64,000 nucleotides of DNA. Source: Schoenoplectus triqueter. Its lineage: Eukaryota; Streptophyta; Magnoliopsida; Poales; Cyperaceae. Shown piece after piece: positions 15,141-57,088 of this stretch (positions are counted from its first letter, which is position 1; each line of letters begins with the position of its first letter). Under the pieces are notes generated by a model that had not been told where the DNA came from, searched no databases, and was given only the letters and a program-made list of their open reading frames with translations. A program made the translations under genes and the position numbers. Location of the stretch: positions 124,001-188,000 of the forward strand of contig CAXKVV010000040.1 of assembly GCA_964058805.1 (NCBI GenBank). Reading direction: 5' to 3'.

Positions 15141-15312
15141 CAATATCACACCCAAGTTATATTATTTATTTCTGCTTGTGTTCAAGTTCATTTTGTATTT
15201 CTCTGTATAAAAAAAGTGAACATATATACATTAAATTTACTTTAATGCATATTTAGTTGTTTATTATTGTCCAATTTACTTTGATTGCATTGGTTGAGTT
15301 TGGTTTTGGATG
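15141..15312. other. Short spacer
   Basis: AT-rich 3' flank of the CC-only ORF. Nothing recognised. Confidence 0.4.
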
Positions 15313-15994
15313 TTGAAATTAATTATTATTAATTACAATATGTATGGGCTTATATGTAATTAATATATAATATTATATGTAATAAATATATATTATATAA
15401 TAACCTGTCAAATTATATCCGTTATGAAGTGATCAAATTATGTATTATTATTCGGGTTTAATATGTGTCATGAGAACTGAGCCCTTTAATGTGTAGAATG
15501 CGTATTAATAATTTTATGATTTAGTGATGGTCTAAATTATATAAAGTTTGATAATAATGCAAATTATGTTATTGGTCTCTGGAGAACACAACTATAGACA
15601 ATTTTATGATTAAGTAGCGAACTCATTAAGAGAGATTTAGAAATGATATGGACCCGCTAAGAAAAATAAATGCTCTCAGTTATGGGCGTCCGTTATATAC
15701 AGTGAGATTGTTGATTTTCGAAATCAATTTTCTCATTCTCCACTTTTCTGGCAACTTTTTATTTTCCAATAGAATTCATCTCTCTCTGAGACAGAGTTTC
15801 AGAAGAGAAAAAAAACTGTCTGCGCCGGTCTTCTCAATCGCTCCTCGGATTAGAAGAAAATCACTAGAAAGCTAAAGGAGTCTGGTGATCAATGGAGTTG
15901 TATCTCTCTGGAAGACCGACAGTATGGATCAAGGTAATCTAATTTATGATTAGAGGTTCATATAGGATCACAACCATAAAGAAATCCTAACAAT

Positions 15995-16007
15995 TGGTAT
16001 CAGAACC
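15995..16007 (+). other. Retrotransposon primer binding site (tRNA-iMet)
   Basis: TGGTATCAGAACC, complementary to the 3' end of plant initiator methionine tRNA with one change from the common TGGTATCAGAGCC. It sits two bases after a CA that can close an LTR. Confidence 0.75.
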
Positions 16008-17575
16008 TACTCTAGTTGAACCGTTAAGATCTGATTCGAAAATTTCTCAGAAATTTATATATTTTTTAATTGGATCTGTTCTATTAATCAAATAGTTTAT
16101 GAATAATTCTAAAATTTATATATCTGTTTGTTAGAATTGAAATTTCCATAAATTAAAATCAAGATTGGCAATCGGTTTCGAAAATCAAGTTTATCAATTT
16201 ATCAGAATTCAGAAAATTGAAATATTTCAGAAATTGATTGGCCAACAAAGTACTTTCCGAATTATATATTATTAACTATCAAATTTCATGATTCTGTTAA
16301 GAAAGTGTGAATTTCTGATCTATATTCCGCTAGGGTTATTTTTTAATCAGGTTAAGATCAGTTGTTGTCGGTTATGTAAATGGGCGGTTATGTAAACTGA
16401 CGGTTTTTCAAAAGAGCGTTGCCCCTTAAACCCCCGCCCGCTTTAAGAAGCCCATTTTGTATTACATGCCTAACTCTTTTTTGCAGAAAGATTATGAGAT
16501 AATATGACTATGTTGCCTTGTGTGAAAATTATAATGCATGAATGATTGATGTGTGTAAGCGGTCTAAGGTGTCCATTAATTATTTTTATTTTTGATGACT
16601 TACATGTCACATAAGTATGTATCATTTTTAGGACTTGTGTAATTTTTATTTATTATTAGGATAGTAGTTTGATAAGAATGAGAGAATTTCATGAAGGACA
16701 TGATGATGATTGTTGTGAAGAGGATTCTTACAAAGATGATCATCATGTCTTGGGTCATACTATCTCACTTATAAATTGATTTATGTTAATTATTTGGTAT
16801 TGATTGCATGAACTCATGAATTGATATTTAGGTTAAACCAACATATTTAAAATATTTATTCAAATAATGTTAAATCATTATGAAGGCTTCGGATAAAAAT
16901 ATATATTTTTAAAATAATTAATAAAAATATCATCTTACCAAAGTAAGCTCTCATATTGGCGTTAATTATTTATCAGACTTGTATACAGAAGATATACATA
17001 TAATATGTGATTCTTGGACTGACCCAAAGAAAAGACAATAATCACTTATTATATATAAACAGATTGTAGTAATATATAGGTAATGATCAATAAATTTTAG
17101 GTGTAATTAGTTAATTGGGTCAAACGAATGTTGACTAATTGACATCAAATGGATCGTTATATATAATTATTACGCATAATTATCTTAGAATAATAATTGA
17201 TTCCAAAGAACACTTATTATTCGAGGATACTTAGTTGATGGAATATGACTTATTTTGATTTAATATTATAATTCAGACATTTAATTCGTTATATTGCATA
17301 TTTTTTTAGTAAAAATTACTGATCTTATTGTTGTTACACTTAACATCTTCTTTGATTTATCGATTTGCAAAACAATCTTGAATTTTACAATTTGTTTTGT
17401 TGAGTTTTGTGCAGGGATTAATATGCAAATGAACTAGTGGACAAGAACCAATACTAGTACTGGGATACAAGAACTTAATCAAGACTGCACTAGGCTTAGG
17501 TTTAGTAAAACTCAAACTGGGTTGAATTGGTCAAGAGAAATTGAGCTTAAACAAAAAGAAAAATGCTTCTGCCCA

Positions 17576-17987: not shown

Positions 17988-18529
17988 GGGGACCATCTCC
18001 TTTCTCCTACTATTGTTGAATACACTTGCAAAATACATTCTTACAGCTATAATTAAAGAGCTTTGAGAAAACCTTGCTATACCTAGCTAAAGCTCAAGAT
18101 CTTTGATCTAAACTTGTTCTAAACACTTGTGAGATTTGCTCCATTGCTAAATCTACTTCTAACGTTTGCTACTTCATTAACTTTAGGCTTTGTCTCTCAT
18201 CCTTTGTGTGTAAGAGGACAAAGTTCGACCTTGTATAGGACTTGTATTTGGTTAAATAGATTGGACCGACTTTATTACAGTTAGACGGGAAGCCGGGGAC
18301 CTGAGGAGTAGGCGCATAACACCGAATCTCGTTACACCGCGTGTCAACTTAATCTTTTGATTGAGCATTTCTAAACTCTTTCTCTTTACTTTATTTCATA
18401 TATTTGGTTTAAGAAATTGCTTGTGCTTGATTGTTGTAGAATTTATTAAAATTGCAATTTAACCCTTGTACTTTTTACTAATTGACCAAATTAGTATTAT
18501 TAGCGGTAATTAAGGGTTACAATTGTCGA

Positions 18530-19597
18530 CATCAATAGCATTTCGATGCTGACAGGTTCTAATTATAAGGAATGAAAAGATATCTTAGAGATTATTTTTG
18601 GGTGTCTTGACCTGAGCATAGCGTTATAACAGGCTAAACCACCTGTACTTGCTGCAGATAGTCCTGAAAATGTGCAAAATGCGTATGCACGGTGGATGAG
18701 GTCAAATCGCTTATGTCTTAAGGTAATGCAAATGATCATTCCTAAAAGTTTTAGGGGACATGTTTCTGATTCCACTCTAGCCTTAGACTATCTTAAAGAA
18801 CTTGAACAGAGATTTCTTAGGAATGAGAAGACTGAAATAGACATTCTGTTAAACAAACTCTGCATAATGTAGTATAATGACAGAAATAATGTAAGGGAGC
18901 ACATTCTTGAAATAATGAATACCGCTTCAAAAATTGAAGACACATAAATTGAAAATATCTGAAGATATGTTAGTCTATTTGTCTTTCAACTCTCTTCCCA
19001 CTTCTTTTGGGCAGTTCAAGGTGAGCTACAACTGTCAGAAGGAATCATGGATAATCAATGGGCTCATCTCACACTATGTTCAAGAGGAAGAGCGTTTGAA
19101 GACGGACAAGAGCGAGAGCGCAAACATTACTTCCACATCTAAGGGAAAAATAAAAATTAAAACGTAAAGTCAATTCAGATGCTGTAACTACAAGTTCGCA
19201 AAAGAAATCCACTAAGGACAAGAAATCGGTTATCAAGACAGAGCCGGATAAGAAAAATAAAGGGTGTTTCTTTTGTGGATCCGAAGGGCACATGAAGAAA
19301 AATTGTACCAATTATCACACATAGCGTGCAAAGAAAGATATTTTTTCTCTTATTTGTGAAGAAATTAATTCAGTTTCAGTTTCAATAGACACATGATTGA
19401 TAGATTCGGGTGCAACCACTCACATATTTGTGTCTATGTAGGATTGCCGAAGTTACCGTAAGCCAAAAGATGATGAAAAATACATTTATGTAGGCGATGA
19501 TAATAAGACAGAAGTTAAAGTAATATAATATTTTAGATTACTTATGAAAACTAATTTATATTTAAATTTGTCTGATATTTTTATTGTGCCGTATTAT
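18530..19597 (+). pseudogene. Copia gag-protease remnant
   Basis: Reads as copia Gag with several stops and at least one frameshift. Segments are MLTGSNYKE, DILEIIFGCLDLSIAL, PPVLAADSPENVQNAYARW, RSNRLCLKVMQMIIPKSFRG, DYLKELEQRF, then after a frameshift near 18934 ISEDMLVYLSFNSLPTSFGQ and FKVSYNCQKESWIINGLISH. A CCHC zinc knuckle (CFFCGSEGHMKKNC, from 19265) is followed by LIDSGATTHI (about 19396), the aspartic protease active site, and NLYLNLSDIFIVP of the pre-integrase region. No integrase follows. Clearly non-functional. Confidence 0.85.
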
Positions 19598-19612: not shown

Positions 19613-20976
<1,364 letters not shown>

Positions 20977-22549: not shown

Positions 22550-23545
22550 AAACCTGAGGTAAGAGAGGAATGATTACCAAGGTGGTCATAATGCTGCCTT
22601 CTTTGTTTACCAGATCTGGGAAGGTTCGGTCGAGGTGGCAAACTCCTCTTGCCACAGCCAGCCAGCTCCATTAACTCCAGGTTTTCTACCCTGGAACAAT
22701 TGGCTGCAACCTTCACCTTTTCTTTCTCCTTAGCTGCAATCTTCGCCATGATTGTTCTCATATTAACTGCTTCTTTCTCTTTTCTTTCTAAAGTATGACT
22801 TGCATGTTGACAACGCAAGGCTCCTGCCTCAGAAGGAGGTCTAAGCCTAGAAGTTCCTGCAGCCTCATAAAAGTGTTCTTGCCAAAAAATTGAATGGCAA
22901 ATTTCCTTGCTATCACATAATTTTCTTTAAATGCTGCATACAAATCCGAATCCTTCTCTGGTTTAAGTCTTTCTCCTCGACATGCAAGGAATTGTCAAAA
23001 GATGCACATGCCATGAACAACACTATAAATACAGCTCTCATGGATAAGCTTGAATTTGAGTCTGGCTTCGGCTTTGGAATTTTGGAGAATCTAATGGGGC
23101 GGTGGCATCACTATCATGCACATGTACTCGAGAGTGAATATTAGATGAGCATGGATGTGAAAAAGGGTTGTTCAACTTGACACTGAACTTCATTCCTTTC
23201 GTCTGTGTCTTTGACTTTGAACTGAGCTCCAGCTTTTTGGTTTGAGTCTGGCTCGGGGTAGGAAATTTTGGAGAATCTGATGGAGCAGTAGCAATGTAGC
23301 ATCACCACCATGCACATGTACTGGAGAGTAAACATTAGTTGAGCATGGATGTGAAAAGGGTTGTTCAACTTGACATTGAAGGTGCAGAAGAGGCATGTAG
23401 CGGGCAACATAAGAGTCATAATCATCGAGAGTACAGCCTGTGAAAGCATCAGGGTTGCCAACCAGCATGAAATGAGAACTGGAGAGGTCCTCGTGAAAGT
23501 CTAATTGAGATGGCAGCGAAGATGGCGGTTGTTGACCTCATTGAT
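22550..23545 (-). pseudogene. Unrecognised coding fragments with an internal tandem duplication
   Basis: Two coding-looking stretches on the minus strand. The 5' one (about 23545-23050) reads SQLDFHEDLSSSHFMLVGNP, DAFTGCTLDDYDSYVARYMP, then a segment with NNPFSHPCSS and HVHDSDATAPLDSPKF that occurs twice (about 23052-23215 and 23242-23385). Frames change between the copies. The 3' one (about 22860-22615) reads RLRPPSEAGALRCQHASHTL, then ERKEKEAVNMRTIMAKIAAK and LMELAGCGKRSLPPRPNLP, and ends at a good GT donor. I do not recognise the family. The duplicated unit with frame breaks suggests a decayed gene rather than a working one. Confidence 0.45.
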
Positions 23546-24114
23546 CACCTGCGAAGACATTATTTGAATTGATAATTAATTTGTTACGCTAGTTTTAGGA
23601 TCCCATGGATCAATTAGAGGGCTCAAGATGCAGAGAGATGGGGGCAGCCTGGCATAGGGTTGGGAACGCACTGCCCATTACTGCTCCTGTAATGGTACTT
23701 CATCCCACAATAATCACTTCTACATAGCCTTTTAGCCTGTGTGCTGGTAATTCCTCCATCACAAGCACATTCCTTTCACTCTGTTTCCTCAACCTTCAGT
23801 GAATTGTTCTGCCGTTAAAAGATCATGCATGAACTGAGATTAGATATAAACAATAACGTTCCTTGCATTAATCTGCCTTAATCTCAATAACACCAAACAA
23901 CAACTAGTCCTAACTTTATTTGAACGCTTTCCAGCAAACATAATAACCTGATTAGGCATGGACAGAAGAAGGTATGGAACATAATAGATTCTCTAGGTTT
24001 TGAACTCCCAACTGTGTGCCTTTCAAAAAGCAAATCTAGAAAGTAGACTCGTAAGCAAGTCCGGGTGAACCCGTTCATGACTCGGAGAAGCATGAACGGT
24101 TTGATTTTTAGGAA
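23546..24114. other. Intergenic
   Basis: No gene supported. It could include the left end of the PIF/Harbinger-type region, but no terminal repeat could be fixed. Confidence 0.4.
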
Positions 24115-24692
24115 ATGAGACATGAATTGGATGAACGCACTGTTGAAGGGCGTAGAGAGGATGAGCCAACAACTGGGCAGCAGCATTCTGCAGGAACTGG
24201 CGGGACGGGCAACAAGAGTACAAGTTCGAACAAACGAAAGTCAACTGAAGTGCCTGAAGGATCACGGAGTCAGCGTGCGAAGAAATCAATCATGGACAAC
24301 CGAGCCACATAAGAAGGAAACTTGGTTGCTATGGGTCACCTGGTAAAATCAAGTGATCGTTTAGTTGAGCAAAACAATGAATTCATTGCAATACAACATG
24401 AAAAAATTAAGTTGAACGAACGAGCCATACCTCCAGAAATAGTTGATGTACTGCATTTCTATGGGCTGAGCATACAACAAAGGAGAAAAGTTATGAAGGC
24501 CTTGGAAGACCCGATGGACTTTAGGGTTTAGGGTTTATATGGATTCTACTCCAGAGGAACAAAGGGATACCATCGGTGAATATATTTCGGGCTGGTACCA
24601 ACCACACACTGGAGATATGCATCCCAATCCGACAGCCAATGGGAGTACTTTTTGCTTTTCCAATTTCATGCTCTAAGAACCACCATATTAGT
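24115..24692 (+). pseudogene. PIF/Harbinger ORF1-like protein, C-terminal remnant
   Basis: Frame from 24115 reads RHELDERTVEGRREDEPTTG, a Ser/Thr/Lys-rich stretch with NKRKSTEVPEGSRSQRAKKS, a TAA stop at 24310-24312, then in the same frame LVKSSDRLVEQNNEFIAIQ, PPEIVDVLHFYGLSIQQRRK and VMKALEDPMDFRV. At about 24520-24535 the sequence AGGGTTTAGGGTTTATATGG holds a duplicated 7-mer. Beyond it another frame continues as YMDSTPEEQRDTIGEYISGW to a stop at 24692. This layout (basic/serine-rich linker, then a helical C-terminus) resembles the Myb/SANT-like ORF1 protein that accompanies plant PIF/Harbinger transposases. The SANT domain itself is not seen, so the assignment is an inference supported by the transposase at 28-29.8 kb. 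Confidence 0.5.
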
Positions 24693-26164
24693 TACTGTAA
24701 TATTATTGCCGTAGTAGAGAAATATAATGTAGTTACATTTGGTGTCTGTTTCTATGTAGTATTTTAGGAGAGCAAGTATTAATTTTCATGTAGCAGTCGA
24801 ACTAGTGCAGTGTTGTAGTTGAGGTCGTTTAATTTTAATTTTCATGCAGAGTATTTATTTTTAGTAGTCCAACTGTAGCAGCAATGTACCAACAAATGAG
24901 TTGGTACATTTTGTTATAAATGAAGTTGTACCAGTATATTTTTTTTATTATAAATTAAGTTGTACCAGTATACATTTTATTATAAGCTAACTTTTAATTA
25001 TGTTATGCTATAGTTCATGTTCTTTGGGGTATTAGCTCCTCAACCTTCTATTATTTTGTTTTGCTTGGCGTAAACTTTTTATAATTTCTGTTACATCTTG
25101 TGGTACCAGCATTGATATGGGTTTGTTGTGAGCAACTAGCAGAAAATGTCAGACTGGTAAGCATGCTCCCCAATAAAATTATTCAAAACATCTTTTAGAA
25201 GCAGTTGCTTGCATTAAAGACGCTCTTAATCCAAATGAGGGAAATGTTGCAGCTACCAAGACAGTCGTTCAAAGAAAACTAGGCACGGACATAACAATTA
25301 CAAAGAGTTGGAATAACATTGTGATCAGGTGCTACAATATATGTTTGCAAATTAAAATTGTATAGCTAAACTTAGGTAATTACGTGGACAACTAGTTATC
25401 CGTTGGAACAGATATTAAAGAGCTCTAAAATCTTTCAACTCAATCTCTTGTCCATGCAAATTTGACTTTTGCATCCTTTTTCTTAAAAAGAAAGCAATCA
25501 AAGTCTGGAATTGCGGCTGTTACCATCAGCTTGAGGGAACAGTAACAGCCTTCTTTATTGGAAAATTTTATTCGAAATTACATACAAGTTAAACTGAACA
25601 CCTGTTAATTGGGTATTGCCTACATTCAAATTATCTATCTATAATAAAAAGAATGAAATGAAATGCTAATGTTCTACACATTATTAGACAATGAAACAAA
25701 TGAATGCTTCATCAATCCCCAGTGCTACTATATCTTTCCATGCCTCTTCACTTGAAAAAGATTTTCCGAATCTCCCAATCTGACAATTCACAGAAAAAGC
25801 GCCCCCCTAGAATACATCTTCATCTAAAAGGTTTCATCTGTCGGGCCCCGCTATTGGATCCAACCAAGTTCTTCTTCGCAGCCAAGTATACAACCCCATA
25901 AGGTGGTCTAAGGCACTGCAGCACATTAGAAATTACAAAACTGATTACATTTAAATCACCAAAACTTAAATAAGGCAACAGCAGCTATTAATTAGCGTTA
26001 ATGAGCTATGCTGTACTAATTAACTGATTTGCATGGCAAGTACCAGGTCCATACTCTGTCATACCAAGATATAGCAATTAATGTACCAGTACCACTGTTA
26101 CAAAAAATTGAAATTTCTTAGGACACTGCAACAATCCCATAACAGGACAGGACTGGTACCATGT
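24693..26164. other. Interior of the Harbinger-type region, mostly non-coding
   Basis: AT-rich, with repeated GTACCAG/TTGTACCAGTATA phrases (for example near 24890-24975). An exon-like stretch at 25201-25365 (+) reads AVACIKDALNPNEGNVAATK then TVVQRKLGTDITITKSW before a stop; its family is not recognised and it may be another captured fragment. Confidence 0.4.
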
Positions 26165-26868
26165 TCATAAGATGCTCCAAACTTTATTTCCAAACACAAA
26201 ATACCATTTCCCAGGTGTATTTTGAGGCTCTACATTGAAAAGAAACAAAATATACGAGTACCAGTATGAGCACAAACGAACCTTTGTTAGAAGTGCATAA
26301 AGCTTTCTCAGAGATGTAACTGAGTAGGGCAAATCCGAAATCAACACCACGTCATAACCGCCATCTCCTTGATCCATCTCACTGCCCCTCTCCCAAGCAC
26401 GTTTCATGACAATTTTCTTGACCTCCTTCTGACACTGCCACTTTCAACTCTACTACCATCATGACTACTCCCCGCATCAGAACCAACAAATCCTCCTCTG
26501 AGAAGTTAAATCCTGCGCTCAAAGAAATGCACTGTAGAGGCACCCTGGAATTATTGTTTGCCTTAGTAATTAATATGAACAAATTCAACAGAAAAACAAT
26601 GTTATTTGCAAATCCTTGTATAATGTAAAGTACCTTGAGGCAAGCAAAAATGCCAGCTAAACCAGACCCGCAACTCAGCTATGTAAAGAATTATAAAGAG
26701 TGTAAGAAGCTTCCTACTTAATCGAGGCAAAGCAGAAACTTTACTTTTGTCAATATGTAAAGAGGCTCATCATTTCCTGATTTCATATAAAATAACAAGA
26801 AACCGTAATAGAACAAAAATAAAAGGGTAATGACATACCTCAAGAACCTTTTTGCCCCTGAAACTAAG
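26165..26868 (-). pseudogene. Histidine protein methyltransferase 1 (METTL18/At2g43320-type) fragment
   Basis: Minus-strand pieces in the right order for this SAM-dependent methyltransferase: QLSFRGKKVLE (about 26865-26838), an exon LSCGSGLAGIFACLK (about 26690-26634, SAM-binding motif), LSAGFNFSEED, then in a second frame FVGSDAGSSHDGSRVESGSV and RRRSRKLS, and in a third frame RAWERGSEMDQGDGGYDVVL and ISDLPYSVTSLRKLYALLTK (ending at 26282). At least two frameshifts and a stop are present. The true N-terminal part is missing; the preceding exon is joined to an unrelated clathrin-assembly tail. It lies between the two Harbinger-type ORFs, which suggests transposon capture. Confidence 0.75.
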
Positions 26869-27336
26869 CTGGCCAGTGCTAGGGCATTTCTGTTATCCAA
26901 TTCAGTTGCAGCAGGACTGGGTTCATTCAACCCTAATGAAAACATCAAAATGGTCAGTTCAAGCTAATAATATTGTTTTTCCACAGGATTTTGTTATGAA
27001 GCAATCAGCATCAGCCATCCAAATTGCTTTGTTTGACCCTAAATTGAGCATCTATACCTCAATCAGTTGGGAATCAGTTTGTTGCCAAAATCAGAATTAT
27101 CAAAGTAAATACACAATAAACCCGATGAATTCAATCTAGCATAATAAATCCTCAATTTGCCTAAATAAGCGTCAGTGTCAGAAGCTGTTGATATGAACTT
27201 ATTTTAACACATTTAACATTCTGGGGGCATTGAGAAATACCAGAAAATCTGTTGGTTCCACTTTAGGAGGTTCTTCTTTGACTGGTTCAGGTTCTGGTTC
27301 CGGTTCCAGTTCTGCTAGGGTAACTCGTTCAGACAT
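26869..27336 (-). pseudogene. ANTH-domain clathrin assembly protein, C-terminal fragment
   Basis: Two exon-like pieces on the minus strand. 27336-27241 reads SERVTLAELEPEPEPEPVKE then EPPKVEPTDFL. About 26932-26869 reads GLNEPSPAATELDNRNALAL. Together they give the acidic linker and the DLLGLNE...ELE..NALALA tail typical of plant AP180/CALM-type (ANTH) clathrin adaptors. The intron between them has lost one G at the donor (CTGGTATTT). The reading runs directly into METTL18 exon sequence without a break, making a chimera. The ANTH membrane-binding domain itself is not seen. Confidence 0.6.
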
Positions 27337-27378
27337 CCCTTACAAAGCCCAATTATAATGTAGTATATTTGCACTTAC

Positions 27379-27458
27379 CTGAAGGTGTCAATTTTAGCAT
27401 TCTTCCCAGCCTTCAGTGCAGCCTCCAACAAGGAGAAACCATCATCAACTCCATGCAT
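27379..27458 (-). pseudogene. Isolated exon-like fragment, family unknown
   Basis: Minus-strand reading MHGVDDGFSLLEAALKAGKN AKIDTF, ending at a perfect AG|GTAAGT donor (27379/27378). It does not splice in frame to the next piece at 27336. It may be a third captured exon; no family recognised. Confidence 0.35.
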
Positions 27459-28027
27459 TTGCAAGCAAGAAAATTACCATTTAGAAAAGAAAAAGATCAC
27501 AGTAACTACAAATTTAACTGTAAAGACAACTTATTTAAAAGATAGTAGAAGATATACCTGTGAAGGATTAGTTGATTAACGCTATGCTGGCCATGGCAAT
27601 TACACAAATCAAACTAAGAAGTAGCAAAGAGGGTACTAATTTAGATAATTTCTTTTAATAGAATTAAATACAATAAACTACTCAGAGAAGAAATGGTTAT
27701 GGCCATATGAGACCTACATCCACAAAAACTCCAAAGCAAAATAGGCTACACATTGCCTACACAAGTGCGAAGAAAACAAGAAAAAATTCAAATACAATAT
27801 AGATTAGCAATACATTTCTGCCATACTACTCAGATAGCCTAAACATTCCCTATACTAGTTCAAATTTTCATGACCTCAACTCCAGCTCCTAATTTTATAT
27901 CAAAAGCCTCTATCTGAAGTTTGACCTGTTAAGAGATGTATTAGTCAAAACAGGTTTAGAAGATAATTAATAAGTGGTGTTGTCATCAGCAAGCAAGGAA
28001 ACACCCACCCCATAGCCATCTTGCTAA
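27459..28027. other. Non-coding interior of the Harbinger-type region
   Basis: AT-rich sequence. No coding stretch recognised. Confidence 0.4.
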
Positions 28028-29846
28028 TTAATTTGCACGATGCGCCCAAAACCAATCTCTCATCTCTTGTCTAATGTTTACACCTATTTCTGTTGCATCT
28101 ACATCAATAGATGCTGTTGTGATTGGATCCAGACCTGCTTCATCTTCTTCATCACTATCTTCGTTATCTTCTTCTGACGTATCCATTGGAACCCTAGTGG
28201 TTGGCACCTCAGTATGTTTTCTGATGAAGTTATGAAGGATGCAACATGCTATGATGATCTTGCACTCTCTTATAATCATAAGGCCTCATGAACTGTAGAA
28301 TCTTGAACCTTTTTTTCACAGCTCCAAATGTCTTCTCCACGATGTTTCTTAGTTGGGCATGTCTGTGGTTGAATAGATCTTCGGGAGATAAATATCGGTT
28401 TGCTCTAGAGCGTCTTCTAAAGACAGCTAGGTGATACGGGTGGTTACGATATGGAGTTATGAAATTTCTTGTATTTGCATAACTCGAATCAGCAAGATAA
28501 AACCTATCTGGTGGGACGGAAAACTTAAATCTGGACAGTGCTCATCGCAGGACAATATTATCATGAGCAGCACCCTCCCACCCTGCAAGTACGTATACAA
28601 AATTACCATTGAAGTCTACAGCAGCCAAAACATTATGAGCCATGAAGTGTTTTCTACATCGCCATTTTTCCTTGTCTTGCTCTTCTGTGGGGGGAATGCA
28701 AGGAACATAAGTTCCGTCTATTGCTCCGAGGGCATTCTGAGTTATAACTAGTTATTAATATTAGCAGAAAGAAAATTTTATTGTTGTAATGTTTCAATCA
28801 GAAGGATCTATGCCAGCATGCCAAAATTTTGAAAATAATTATTCTAGGTTTATTTATATGGATGACAAGATGTCCTTGTTTTAAGCTGCGGCTTCATATA
28901 TAGATGAAAAAAATAACACTATTCATGGATTTCCTTTTTCACTTAACAACACTTAACCACAATCATTGTCCATTTCCAAAAAAAAAAATATTGCAACTTT
29001 TATATATACATTTGTCTATCATAATTATATTTTTGTTTAATATATGTTAGCTGCAGTCATCAATTAAATTTCACTCAATTATATACTGATGATTAAAGCA
29101 TACAAGGTTAAATGCGGAACTGACTGATATGACCTTAAGTACATGCTGGAACTGGTATAATGAATTATTCAATGCTATCTCACCTGTTGTGTTGCATGTG
29201 CTGGTTGTGAGTTACATCAAAACTGGTACTGGCTTGAAAGCATTAATTCAAGCATCCTCAATCCGATTTAATTTATGCTTATGCATCTAGATTCAAATGA
29301 AAACACAAAAAATTGAAACGTCACTAATACTATAAAGATAATGCTGACCTTAAAAGGAGAAAAACAAGAATCTTTGGAGACTTGTGCATGTAATGGTGTG
29401 TTCACTCCCGGTAGTATGATGTACTCACGTTGCATACGGAGTACACTACGCAACACATCTTTGAAGCATCTATGAACCATCTCCAAGGAATGCTGAAAAT
29501 CCTCACCCACTTTTCTCATCGTCATTGAATGGCCAAGTATCTGCAAAAACATTCCGATTTGTTCTTCTACTGAAACTTCATCTGTTTTTAGAATTCCCTT
29601 CTGCACTACTTCATCACAGAGGATCCTGAAGGTCGTTGGAGTCATTCGAAACAAGTCCAAACATCTCTGAGGATGCCCTTGCAAAATATCCATAATTAGA
29701 CTTCTCCCTGTGAATGGTCTATCATTTCTGATTCTTCGAGCCTCTTCCTTTGTAATTGCCAAAACACCTTGTATAACTGTGTTTATGTTGGTGATTACTT
29801 GCATATTGTTTCTCATGATAAATGCAAAATCGTCATCACTATCCAT
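28028..29846 (-). pseudogene. PIF/Harbinger transposase (DDE_4, HARBI1-like), lightly damaged
   Basis: Two exons on the minus strand: 29846 to about 29350 (ending FSPFK, GT donor) and about 28743 to 28028. Exon 1 carries the HTH-containing N-terminal part (RPFTGRSLIMDILQGHPQRC, LDLFRMTPTTFRILCDEVVQ, MTMRKVGEDFQHS, MVHRCFKDVLRSVLRMQREY). Exon 2 holds the catalytic core: ALGAIDGTYVP (first Asp), GWEGAAHDNIVLR (second Asp), FYLADSSYA, and RNIVEKTFGAVKKRFKILQ (Glu). It ends in IIIACCILHNFIRKH and an acidic tail closing with MRDWFWAHRAN. Damage seen is one TGA just after NIVLR and a one-base frameshift after MRPYDY. The DDE triad is intact, so the copy is young or only recently dead. Confidence 0.9.
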
Positions 29847-30646
29847 TATCTACAAACAATGAAAAACACAATAAAATTGTAACGGAATGCATTAGGCAGT
29901 AATTCAAAATTAATTTATTGATTTATAACTGAAATACCACTCAATCGTCCTAGATCGTGCTAGTCTTCATACTTTAAAATTTTAAATTATGTGCTGTCAG
30001 TTAATCATTTAATTATTTTTATAAGGTAAATAAAATGGTAATTACTGTTAAATAGACCTATCTCGTCTATCATAGAATGATAAGAACTGTAATCTGTGAA
30101 TGACCAGATATATAACTGGAGGTACCCGTTTCTAAAGAAAGGGAGATGATTCAACACAATTTACACTCCCAGAATTTCAGCATATTATAAGTGCCTCTTC
30201 TAATTGGCTTCGTTATCACTAATGAATAGATTTTCCCTTGATTTTTTGTATTTCGAACTGCCTCTTCAGCATATTAGGTACCCACAGATTACACATTTTT
30301 ACCACTGACTATGATTATCAAAAGAAAACATAAGTGAAATGAGAAATGAAATTTTACTGTAAATTAAAGCCGAAATAAACTATATTAGTTTTAAGAGAAT
30401 CAAGGAATCAAGCACAGAGATTAAATTTGACTTGGTTCTTGTTTAAAGAACAAACAATAGAGTTCTGAAATTTCAAAAATGTACAATGAATCACATATTA
30501 AGGAAAGATTAAGCGACACAAAAAATTAATAACATTTCAATCAGCAGAGATTAGATACCAAGCAAGGAGGGATTAAGCCATTAATGGCCAAATTTGATAA
30601 GAAAAAAAAATGAAAAGAACAATAGCGAAAAAGAGAAAGTAGATAC
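29847..30646. other. Transposase upstream region
   Basis: AT-rich sequence upstream of the transposase start. No coding sequence recognised. Confidence 0.4.
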
Positions 30647-30754
30647 CAAGCGGATGTGGTCTCGCGTCGCCACACTAGTCACGGGGAAGCGCACCCAATC
30701 TGACGCGCCTTCAATTTCAGGGGGGAGGATGTCAGAAGAGGCGATAGCAGCCAT
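30647..30754 (-). pseudogene. Isolated first-exon-like ORF, family unknown
   Basis: Minus-strand ATG at 30754 opens MAAIASSDILPPEIEGASDW then VRFPVTSVATRDHIRL, 36 codons, followed by a GTATCT donor-like site at 30646. It has higher GC than its surroundings. It could be a first exon whose partner is lost, or another captured fragment at the edge of the Harbinger-type region. Confidence 0.35.
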
Positions 30755-31384
30755 TAGCGGTACCAATACAGTCGGTACCGAGGAGGAAATACATTTAAAG
30801 AAACGGGCAGATGAAGGGAGCGGTCAGTTAATATTTGAAGTTCGGGCAGGGGCGGCAAAAGGATCTGTCCGTTGAATTTAAATTACGGACAGCAACGTTC
30901 GCGCAAACGAATTTGAACGATGGACGATTCACGCAAGCTGACGTGGCATTCATACAGCAATTAGCGATGGATTCTTTATCAATTTTCTTGTTTCTTGTTG
31001 CGTTAGTTTCGCCTATAAATAGGCTATTAATTCCTGTAAATGGATTATGGAAAAGTTATTGAAAAGTATTAGTTCTGCCAACTCATTTTCTAGCTTAAGC
31101 TTCCGCCACTGTTTATTTTCTGAAAATTCTTCAAATTGAATCTTAATTTCAAGGAAATTCTTTCCAGAACACACTCCTTTCATCCGTTGTGTTACAGAGG
31201 AGGAAAAAAGGTTTCACTGGGGATCAAACGAAACCCACGAGACACGAACCAAGAACAGGAAAGAGGAGCGACCAGCGTACTAGGTCGAACTTTTAATTTT
31301 GCTCAAATTGTAATGAGAAGGGATCGGTTGAGGATTGGTTATCTTGACAACTAGGTGTTGAAATAAATATAAAAAATTCTAAAT
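30755..31384. other. Possible outer edge of the Harbinger-type region
   Basis: Contains the palindrome GTCCGTTGAATTTAAATT-ACGGAC (about 30858-30881) and a GC-richer stretch with GGTACC sites (30760-30780). No intact gene; short open frames have no recognisable domain. Confidence 0.4.
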
Positions 31385-31565
31385 TCTAAAAAATTATAGA
31401 TATTTGATTGTAATTTAAATTTTATATCATTTTATTATTATTTAATAATTTATTAAAAATATTAAATTTTTATATAATTTATACTGGTCTCAATTTAACA
31501 ATATTTATTTGATGAATTATCATAAGATAATGACATTATATGAAATTTGAATGACTATTAATTTA
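31385..31565. mobile_element. MITE family B, short copy
   Basis: Contains AATTTAAATTTTATAT, AATAATTTATTAAAAA and ATTATATGAAATTTGAATGA in an inverted layout. In reverse complement it aligns over about 160 bp with 44828-44995 (ATTGTTAAATTGAGACC versus CTGTTAAATTGAAACCG). No coding capacity. Confidence 0.5.
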
Positions 31566-33497
31566 GGAGGCTGATAATAGTCCCCAATCTTTTATCCCCA
31601 TAAAAAATCCCCAAATTGACCGTGAGCGTCAAACCCAATAGTCAGCGACTCAGCGATAAAAAGTCTCTTGACTAACGCGCCTATTCAACTCTTTCCCGAC
31701 ACTATTTATATATACATCTTATGTTATTTACATATTTTGTAATGATAATTTATATTTATTCTTATAGCAGTGCACTTTATTTATATGTGTTGTAATAAAA
31801 CTATAACTGTCAACATGTTAGTCCTACTGATCATTTTTACAGAGCGACATGGTCTCGCTGAAGCATGTTATTTCTAACTGCATATTCTGTTTATATTAAT
31901 CATTAACCCTGTAAATATATATACAAACACCTGTAAAAAAAACATGTAAGAACATATATGTGGATTAAAAACACTATTTATATTTGCATGTACAATAGAT
32001 TAGATACGACACATGCATAGGTTCCTCGTTTCTTCTAACGTCCAATTTATACTAATTTTTATGACAATTTACACATAGAAAATAGCAAATGTGTTGGTAT
32101 ACAACATCTTATATATAGTTTGACGCACGGCCTTTTGATAAACAAAACTATTTATACCGATTAATATGATAATTTACACTTTGTTGCACTTTGATTAACA
32201 TAAATGCAAATAATTATTATTATATTGTATCTGATATGATATATATATAGTATAGTACCTATAACTGTTATCAACCGCTATTTATATTTGACTGTATAAT
32301 TTGTTATATACGACACATGCATAACTTCTTATTGAAGAGAGTTGAAAACATATTTCAATTGAGTAGAAACAAAAACAAACGCTAGTAATCGCTGCATGTA
32401 CCATGGAGGCCAACTATGATTTTTCTGATATGCATAACAATGAACATTTTTTGGGGAAAATTGCCTAATATATATGAAAAATACGGACATGGGTCGAAAA
32501 TGACCATTTATATTTTGATTCGGCGAAATAGGAGAGAGGGAGAAATGAGTGATAAGAACGTGAATGAATAAATTATTTTAAAATTTGAAATTGGTTTACG
32601 AAAAGATGTCTCAAATTTTTGTTGACGAAAAAAAGTATAACTGTAGTCAATTTGGGTAATTAGTCAATGAGGATGAAAGTTGGGAACGGATGGATGGAGA
32701 TAAATATAATATTCCATTAATTTATAGGTATAGGTAGAATAATATAATTATAACTTTTTCCATTTTAAATTTTTTATATTTATGTAAATATTTATTATCA
32801 AAATTGACAAAACAACACATTTTCACATATTATTGTAATCCGTATGAGCTGTCATAAAATATAAAATTATATTTTATGGCAGCGGATATATTTTTGTATT
32901 ATTCTTCTGTAGAATGAAAATATTTATTTGTATGATCGGATCCTGAAATCTGTATCTGTTAAAATACCTTTAACTGTTCACTTTATCATCTACGGTACTA
33001 GAGAGATATATACCCTGGGGTTTGGGCATTTAGAAAATATATTATCGTCAAATTGTATGAAGAACTTGCAATTTTACTTAAATACAAATTGTAGGGAATC
33101 ATATTTTCCAACTGAAACGAACAGCCCACTATACGAAACAAAATTGATGATCTCTATGGAACTTTTGTGGGAAAGTAAGTTTCATCATTATCAAAAAAAA
33201 TATTTTATTTATATATAAAGATAAATACTGCTAAAACATATGATAAATACTACATAAAAGTATCGAAATTTCATTACATAAAAATAATGAATAGAAAATT
33301 AAGTCTCAGATTTTTATTACTCACATTCTATTTATTTTTTTATAAATTTATTAGTGAAATAAGTCTAAAGTACTTTTATAAACATAATTTGCCACAAACA
33401 ATTAAATATAATTAAAATTTATTTTTAAATCATTTTATTTAATAAAATTATATGATCATTATTATACAAATGATTTTGTTAGTAGTGAAGCGCGGAG
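31566..33497. other. AT-rich spacer with degenerate repeats
   Basis: No gene. A block around 31968-32030 (CTATTTATATTTGCATGTAC then TACGACACATGCATAGG) recurs at about 32275-32330, and weaker relatives lie near 31690, 32045 and 32145. Confidence 0.5.
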
Positions 33498-54638: not shown

Positions 54639-57088
54639 TCATCTGTGAAAGGAACTGAGATTTGTATCCTCTTTGCTTTGATGCTTTTATGTCATTTTGC
54701 ATTGCACTTAATATTGGTTGGACTAATGTGATACTGCTGACTACTAGCTATATGGTTTGAACTGAAGCACTTAGTATGCAACGCTGATTAATGCTCGTCT
54801 TTGTATAGTTGTTTTCATTCTAGGCCTGAAATTAAATTCTGATTGTATGCTTCGATTTTCATCAGGATTTTAGTTTAGAAGAAATCTGAACTATTATTCT
54901 TGTTTGTTCCCAAATCTCATTATTGGCTATGTTTGGATGGGCGCCCTTCCTTTGCGGAGATCTCTGCCGCCGGTAGATCCGAATAGCTCTTTTTAATCTA
55001 AATGTTTATGAAGAATTTAAATATGAATTTTGATGCACGAAAAATTTACTAGTATTAAATCAGGACCGTTGATCGATTATCAGATGATTTATAATAAAGA
55101 ACCCCATGACTCTACAAAGGATGTGAGTTCATGTTTGGATGAGGTGAGATTAGTTCTATTTTAAGAACAGCACACTAACCTAAAAAACTGTAATCTAAAC
55201 ACGATTTAAGAATTCGGGTTAGCTCTAGAAAAGTGTTATTCTACTAACTCATTGGAAAGGTGATTAGTGGTGTAGTGCATAGACATCGTCATTAAGGTTC
55301 GGGATAAACTTTTCAAGGGCTGGTCTAATGGGTTTACGAGAGGGTCGGATAAAGATTGGGTTTGATAAGGGTTTTTAGAGGGTCAGGTTCAAAGGGCTTA
55401 ATTTTTAAGGGGTGAGCCGGTCCTTACTAAGTTCTCCGGACTCTAAGGGCCGGATAAGGGTCGACGGATAAGGGTTTGATATTTTTTTTATGATCACATA
55501 TTTTTTTTAATGTTAATTTATATTTGTATAAAAATATTAAATTATTTTTTATTTTGACATTTTATTTTAATTTTTCTGTTTTTTTAAGTTTTTAAGTGTA
55601 ATTAATATAAAATATTAAATATTAAAAAAATGGTCAGGTAAGGGTCGGAAAGAGTCGGATTAGAAGAGCTTGCTTTTTGAAGATTGAGTTCAGTCGTTAC
55701 CATTAGAAAGGATTGGACTGGACTTGTGAGGGTCGGATAAAAGTCAGATTTTTTGAAAGGCTGACTGGATCGAGTTCAAGATTCGAGCCCTTAAAAGACT
55801 ATGTCGAATAGTGCATTTATAAAAAATTTCATTAATATTAATATAATATAATTTTTATAAATATAAATATTAAATAAATTAATAAAAAATAATTATTTAT
55901 TTTATTTATTCTCTTTACTATTCTTAAGTTATCATTCAAATAATATTTTACTAATTCTAATAATAAAAAATTAACATTCTTCTTATATTTTTCAAAATAT
56001 CACTAATATCGTACTATTCTCATTTACTAACTAATCCTCTCACCATCCAAAAACGCTATTATTTATGCTCAGGTTATCATGTGAATATAACTTAGGCGAA
56101 ATTGGTTCAACTAATGATGTGGTTAGATGCTATGCTACATACCTAATCCCTTAGATTCATTAGCCCCCATTAAATTCTCCCTTTGGCAGAAGCACACTTT
56201 GTATCAAAAGAGTTAGGTTGGTTTGGCAAATTAAGGAATAACTTTGGAAGGATGGTAATTTTGGAAGAGAGATAAAATAATATCATTTTAAAAGAGTGGT
56301 ATTTTTAACTATTCGGAAAAGCAAAAGTATTGTTTGACAGTTGTTAATCAGAATAGTTAAATTATGTACAATTATGATACTAACCATTATGATGATGATG
56401 ATGATGATGATGATAAAATAATCATAATAATAGTAAAATGATTAAAATAATATAATAATATAATCATAATCATAATAAATAATAATAATAATCATGGTCG
56501 TAATCATAATAATAATATAATAATAAATAGTCATGATAATAGCTTGATATATCAGATTGGTACTCTTCCGCATTGTTTTACTTAGTCTAAAATTTATTTG
56601 ACAAATTAATTCATCAGAATAGCAATACTATTCTACTTTTTGCTATTTCATGAAGTACCAAACGGACCATTATGAGTTGTGATAATCAAAAGTATTTTGG
56701 TGATTAACACTTCATTTATTCTCATCCCCTACTCCTAATAAAAGGATATTAAAAAAGCAAGTCAAAAGCTCTATCTGTCAGTAGAGCATATCAGTAATGA
56801 TCTTTAATCACAATCGTGAATAGAATTTCCCAGTTTTTCGGTTCTAACTGGTCTAGTTGATCCAAATAGAAAAGCAGCATTTTTTTTTCTCTCCTCTCCC
56901 ATATCGCCACAAATACCCTCACTTTCCTTGTCCCTGCCCCCACCCTGGTTATAAAAGAAGCCCTTCCGGCTTTCCCTCTTCCCGTTTGTGAGATATTGAG
57001 AGGAGAAATTGTAGAGGGAATGAGATGAGAGAGAGGGCTACGGTGGTCTCTGCTTGGAGGAGGCAAGAAGAGATACCAATGACTCAGT
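54639..57088. other. GeBP 3' flank and TE-rich spacer
   Basis: 55308-55799 looks like a decayed DNA element: ends CTTTTCAAGGGCTGGTC and GAGCCCTTAAAAG are inverted, and the interior has repeated AGGGTCGGATAA(A/G)GGTC phrases. Similar phrases recur at 63590-63720. 56385-56520 is a compound GAT/AAT microsatellite. No gene is supported. Confidence 0.45.
56385..56520. repeat. GAT/AAT compound microsatellite
   Basis: Run of ATGATG units followed by interrupted ATAATA units. Confidence 0.85.

Follow-up and report, generated by a model that had tools for sequence, protein, structure and literature searches.

Capture of host DNA by PIF elements is already in print for grapevine, in which Pifvine-3 elements carry transduplicated or captured genomic fragments (PMC2528002), and for maize, in which Gisby and Catoni presented Pack-PIF elements with gene scraps of 163 bp and 58 bp and defined Pack-TYPE elements as non-autonomous (PMC8903248). 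Concerning animals, Pack-TIRs, which are recognised by their terminal inverted repeats (TIRs), have been explained by gap-filling and FoSTeST models, gap-filling being described with template switching and microhomology (PMC8277862). We present here a new example, a chimera of host-gene pieces lying between open reading frame 1 (ORF1) and the transposase of a PIF/Harbinger element in Schoenoplectus triqueter. The window, i.e., the whole stretch of DNA that was analyzed, is 64 kb long (G000:C39:124001-188000) and belongs to an assembly of 82,091,230 bp in 2086 contigs.

The window element resembles Pifvine-3 in that host genomic fragments, exons and introns together, lie beside the element's own genes; the extra sequence of Pifvine-3, however, forms a long 5' region beyond ORF1 and the transposase, whereas here it occupies the spacer between them, and some Pifvine-3 captures are common to several copies, whereas this chimera was found once, in a truncated element (PMC2528002). 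With cluster #18 of Zm-Pack-PIF it shares short host-gene scraps stacked in PIF elements, but the maize elements are short, multi-copy, provided with TIRs and Pack-TYPE, and fusion of neighbouring insertions has been proposed as their origin (PMC8903248). Like animal Pack-TIRs, it combines captured fillers in a TIR transposon with microhomology at a breakpoint, although those cases come from animals and are recognised by TIRs, and the plant case is called worth exploring (PMC8277862). Harbinger capture is less unusual than the initial annotation of this DNA had claimed (PMC2528002, PMC8903248); no earlier description of this particular chimera was found in the accessible parts of the literature searched on Pack-PIF and Cyperaceae Harbinger capture. 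It represents a well-resolved multi-gene capture in a PIF element, having two donor loci, one junction that can be read and a relative whose spacer differs, and it can be used to weigh two capture models against each other, namely template switching during gap-filling and the fusion of adjacent insertions.

Host-gene pieces inside a Harbinger backbone

It appears likely that a truncated PIF/Harbinger transposon gained parts of a METTL18-B, an ANTH and a SCAMP gene in its ORF1-transposase spacer. Capture of several host genes inside the backbone, as the initial annotation had it, is well supported by the donors on contigs C204 and C1745, by the placement of one piece in a METTL18-B clade of sedges, by the flanking Harbinger genes and by a related copy, C1383, in which the spacer is unrelated, while the outer parts of that picture are corrected below. 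The region comprises the following features:

24066-24985, plus strand: C-terminal part of a PIF/Harbinger ORF1 remnant with downstream sequence, by homology to C1383
24986-25750, no strand assigned: left part of the insert, with an exon-like open frame at 25201-25331 (plus strand), matched only by the window itself in own-genome searches
25751-26874, minus strand: fragment of METTL18-B (histidine methyltransferase homolog), residues 111-349 with introns, by tblastn and tree
26870-26874, minus strand: GGCCA overlap (junction microhomology) between the ANTH donor sequence and the G111-Q112 codons of METTL18
26870-27312, minus strand: ANTH (AP180-type clathrin assembly) fragment with its donor on C204, running from within the acidic-linker exon through an intron into the following exon
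27313-27454, minus strand: exon-like reading at about 27379-27454, then a GTAAGT splice-donor-like site; no other match
27455-27494, minus strand: 40-bp SCAMP gene scrap across an exon/intron boundary, by its match to C1745
27550-30550, minus strand: PIF/Harbinger transposase gene with introns and flanks, by Pfam and homology to C1383
30551-30729, no strand assigned: G+C-rich exon-like sequence right of the last family homology, matching the window only

The two outer blocks, 24066-24985 and 27550-30550, both match the reference copy C1383 (L053) in identical order and orientation with 86-91% BLAST identity, and more distant copies of the family are carried by C677 and by C1872 (L056) and C1571 (L057). 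Identities are counted as identical over ungapped columns of pairwise alignments, with gap columns apart. The ORF1 block has 85.7% BLAST identity to C1383 (798/912 columns, 27 gap columns, 12.5% divergence) and the transposase block at 27550-29964 has 2138/2353 identical columns (104 gap columns, 9.1% divergence). The decayed plus-strand gene read as ORF1-like was recovered: the remnant has a stop at 24310-24312, and C1383 holds a 255-aa open frame at the same position, for which Pfam returned no family, the label ORF1 being based on position and on homology within the Harbinger family. The minus-strand PIF/Harbinger transposase was also borne out, as DDE_Tnp_4 (PF13359) was detected above the cut-off in two pieces, in the frames 28542-28751 and 28230-28541 (E-values of 8.8e-9 and 4.3e-12). 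It cannot be called nearly intact, as it had been, since its reading frame is interrupted by a stop codon at 28542-28544 and shifts near 28270, with the conserved C-terminal part resuming in a different frame at 28028-28285; the transposase of C1383 is likewise divided among several frames. A DDE_Tnp_4-type transposase with ORF1 beside it characterizes the PIF/Harbinger superfamily, and the window element appears to be a dead, truncated member. As a side observation, C1571 and C1872 are identical across 4,235 bp, which suggests that they are duplicated contigs of the assembly.

Between the two blocks lies an insert of 2,564 bp (24986-27549), compared to 1.37 kb in C1383. Homology breaks off sharply at 24985 and resumes as sharply at 27550. 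For 1,602 of the 2,564 bp (62%) the kind of source could be identified. The identified pieces are absent from C1383, and the best match between insert and C1383 spacer (E-value = 0.034 over 36 bp) amounts to no convincing similarity.

The ANTH fragment proposed initially found its donor gene. It matches C204:10183-10625 with 94.4% identity by BLAST (420/441 ungapped columns, 4 gap columns, 4.8% divergence; E-value = 5.1e-51 for the queried part). Of five C204 exon frames submitted to Pfam, three match ANTH, one of them below the curated cut-off; the acidic-linker frame gave a sub-threshold match to a low-complexity Pfam family, and the last frame matched none. Because the C204 gene extends past the matched piece on both sides, it is the donor or very close to it. 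Since the copy includes an intron, its template was DNA and not a spliced RNA. At the start of its exon one G has been lost compared to C204. Separately, C204:12056-15123 matches the window at 15305-17330 (80%) and 18524-19595 (89%); these stretches are probably a long terminal repeat (LTR) retrotransposon, as a C204 frame resembles, by eye, a copia-type gag.

The METTL18-type exons continue directly from the ANTH piece, as had been noticed, and this was established by tblastn, tree and junction. Proteins of Rhynchospora breviuscula and Carex rostrata align in pieces over residues 111-349, whereas residues 1-110 of METTL18-B had no significant match by tblastn anywhere in the 64-kb window. The piece reaches the stop codon and represents the 3' half of the gene. 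Within about 10 bases after residues 138-144 (GASTVHF) the reading resumes at residue 216, so approximately residues 145-215 have been deleted; frame changes occur inside the GASTVHF exon and an in-frame stop in the last one. A tree was built from 25 rows, namely 23 proteins chosen from 166 returned, the METTL18 gene of contig C24 and the METTL18 piece of the window; in it, this piece clusters with the R. breviuscula and C. rostrata proteins (support 100/99). The C24 gene groups with R. tenuis in a separate clade, and its protein is 93% identical to an R. tenuis (Cyperaceae) protein, the best among 120 listed of 718 proteins. C24 was considered as the donor and ruled out, as it shows 72-86% DNA identity over four short pieces and belongs to the other paralog clade. 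No intact gene combining ANTH and METTL18 in this order came to light: the C204 gene goes on into ANTH-type sequence, and sedge METTL18-B proteins carry their own N-terminus. Regarding the family itself, clade A holds R. tenuis, C24, Juncus and Paspalum, and clade B holds R. breviuscula, Carex and several grasses, which suggests that the order Poales may retain two old METTL18 paralogs.

The SCAMP scrap is 98% identical to C1745:25084-25123 (E-value = 1.1e-10), where the spliced neighbouring exons match Pfam SCAMP (PF04144, E-value = 2.1e-21); the exon/intron boundary was placed by eye. The E-values of the C204 and SCAMP matches make chance matches unlikely. For the remaining exon-like pieces, the claim that their origin is not apparent held for those at 25201, 27379 and 30647, as no donor was found; the 30647 piece abuts a solo LTR and lies beyond 30550. 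Own-genome searches matched 24986-25750, including the 25201 piece, and 30551-30729 to the window itself only, and gave no donor for the 27379 piece. The left part may include 3' untranslated sequence of METTL18-B. Pfam returned no family above the cut-off for the submitted frames of these pieces, and comparison of two of the three with PDB gave no match for one and a weak match (E-value = 0.51) for the other. A search of a plasmid collection gave no match.

The joint, its possible origin and competing explanations

Read on the minus strand, the ANTH/METTL18 junction is GCACTGGCCAGCTTAGTTTC in the window and GCACTGGCCATTGTTCC in the ANTH donor. The METTL18-B residues GQLSF start at 26874, so GGCCA is common to both sources, which fits microhomology-guided joining. 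The far end of the ANTH piece sits in a GGTTC-rich repeat, leaving that junction unreadable. At the joint the two reading frames are one base apart; given this, the G lost at the start of the ANTH exon and the broken METTL18 frame, no fused ANTH-METTL18 protein can be encoded as the chimera stands. The chimera is most likely without function, and matches to METTL18 and ANTH exons in this window should not be annotated as a gene.

We propose that parts of three or more host genes, copied as DNA with their introns, entered the ORF1-transposase spacer together with pieces without known source, and that they would have been copied in during repair of a break or gap inside the element, with template switching at short homologies. 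The several unlinked sources, the 40-bp scrap and the 5-nt overlap suggest such repair synthesis, since the GGCCA joint and the SCAMP filler would be the type of trace that it leaves. Fusion of neighbouring insertions, as modelled in PMC8903248, is a conceivable rival that explains several unlinked donors less well than template switching. Since ANTH diverges 4.8% from its donor and the transposase 9.1% from C1383, the capture is probably younger than the split between the window element and C1383.

Several observations weigh against this proposal. Homology to the Harbinger family ends at 24066 on the left, within the ORF1 coding sequence, and at 30550 on the right. Terminal inverted repeats and target-site duplications (TSDs), which the initial annotation had expected around the region, were sought and not found: inverted-repeat searches around both ends gave weak arms only, no 3-bp TTA/TAA TSD was seen, and a 16-kb scan with the 15-base terminal motif of the family gave 17 matches with 4 mismatches, none convincing. 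C1383 has a terminus-like ...GCCAAACGGACCC (also read as ...TTGCCAAACGGACCC) followed by TTA, its opposite end being lost at the contig edge; this motif lies about 480 bp past the last homology to the window, which thus stops short of it. In C1872 terminus-like motifs occur at both ends, flanked by TAA and TTA, i.e., by no direct repeat. When the LTR at 30730 was removed in silico, the sequence right of 30550 gave weak matches only among the best six listed per contig for the right ends of C1383, C677 and C1872, the best of them (E-value = 8.5e-5) coming from within a foldback repeat; those among them that came from 30550-30729 spanned 25-40 bp with E-values of at least 0.13. As no terminus was found on either side and the left homology starts inside ORF1, the element is truncated or rearranged, and as no TIR or TSD was found, the flanking genes are the evidence that the cargo belongs to a single mobile unit. 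This state is the chief weakness in naming the element a Pack-type unit. The label, used in the initial annotation, is not established: transposase sequence is retained, though broken, whereas Pack-TYPE elements are non-autonomous by the definition in PMC8903248, and the host-gene fragments are flanked by Harbinger genes, with no bounding TIRs found. The chimera was found once, so that movement of the element together with its cargo is unproven, and microhomology was read at the ANTH/METTL18 junction only. The donor search succeeded for ANTH (C204) and SCAMP (C1745), but neither DNA nor protein search of the assembly found a direct METTL18-B donor, and the pieces at 25201, 27379 and 30647 had none; the assembly may be incomplete, therefore the missing METTL18-B gene is not taken as loss of the donor. 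Finally, the METTL18 piece branches immediately outside the pair formed by R. breviuscula and Carex (weak support of 91/60, with 43% of its row filled), a position not expected if a Rhynchospora-like gene had simply been copied recently.

A broader reading, conceivable yet doubtful, is that the ORF1-transposase spacer of this Harbinger family acts as a capture pocket, repeatedly refilled with host DNA during break repair while both genes stay usable. On this view, the window element, C1383 and C1872 would show three different fillings, namely the single-copy, unrelated sequences that lie next to the transposase in each; neither the C1383 spacer nor the corresponding C1872 stretch has another match in the assembly. 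If true, the pocket would let an autonomous element carry and rearrange host exons.

Alternatively, the METTL18 piece could be the remnant of a native METTL18-B gene at its own locus amid transposon and gene debris, with only ANTH and SCAMP captured. It is the largest piece and reaches the stop codon, and besides it, searches of the assembly turned up only the C24 paralog. We regard this as unlikely, since the piece sits between two genes of a single Harbinger backbone, starts exactly at the ANTH junction with its GGCCA overlap and lacks a significant match to residues 1-110 in the window, and since an intact METTL18-B may just be missing from the assembly.

Multi-gene chimeras are typical of Pack-MULEs and Helitrons, and together with the sharp borders at 24985 and 27550 this could point to a second mobile element of one of these kinds, loaded with gene scraps and inserted between ORF1 and the transposase. 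Such an insertion is quite unlikely: the best inverted repeat between the two 200-bp insert borders measured 14 nt, a length reached by 15.5% of 200 shuffles and thus at chance level (neither Helitron ends nor MULE target-site duplications were searched for), and C1383 presents an unrelated 1.37-kb spacer and not an empty site. That the ORF1 and transposase parts are two independent Harbinger fragments, with the chimera formed between them by an unrelated rearrangement, is highly improbable, since order and orientation are as in the C1383 element and C1383 is the closest relative of both, even though both outer ends are truncated, TIRs were not found and divergence from C1383 is unequal (12.5% vs 9.1%).

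Flanking repeats and neighbouring genes

To the right of the Harbinger homology, two further features were annotated:

30730-31196, no strand assigned: Ty3/gypsy solo LTR, with GAGGA 5-bp TSDs at 30725-30729 and 31197-31201
31315-31565, no strand assigned: foldback repeat resembling a miniature inverted-repeat transposable element (MITE), with own-genome matches in many places in the assembly

The solo LTR has TG...CA ends, a 5-bp TSD and a full element elsewhere, on C568, whose two LTRs it matches in 436/465 and 435/465 ungapped columns (about 6.3% divergence). The C568 LTRs are 5 kb apart, with reverse transcriptase, RNase H, integrase and chromodomain between them and ATAAT flanking both outer ends; TGGTATCAGAGC, after the first LTR, is what we take to be a primer-site-like motif. 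The solo LTR is a later insertion and not cargo. The C568 match at 30.7-31.2 kb had also been considered as a captured promoter with a first exon, a candidate ruled out by the GAGGA-flanked LTR. With 30560-31660 as query, at least 63 matches were obtained (40 scored of 857 candidates), most of them to the foldback repeat and many on both strands. A further repeat adjoining it starts in 31558-31660, continues beyond and is up to 96% identical to C516, C316 and C1826.

On the left flank, 23055-23380 is a local direct duplication with a spacing of about 190 bp and 81-96% identity. The plus-strand frames at 19766-20976 were read by eye as a ubiquitin-S27a (RPS27a) fusion gene adjoining the transposon region. 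Farther along the window, a MITE-like element at 56216-56669 has ends GGTTGGTTTGGCAAAT... and ...CCAAACGGACCA that resemble the Harbinger-family terminus, with TTA on both sides, and is likely a Tourist-type derivative.

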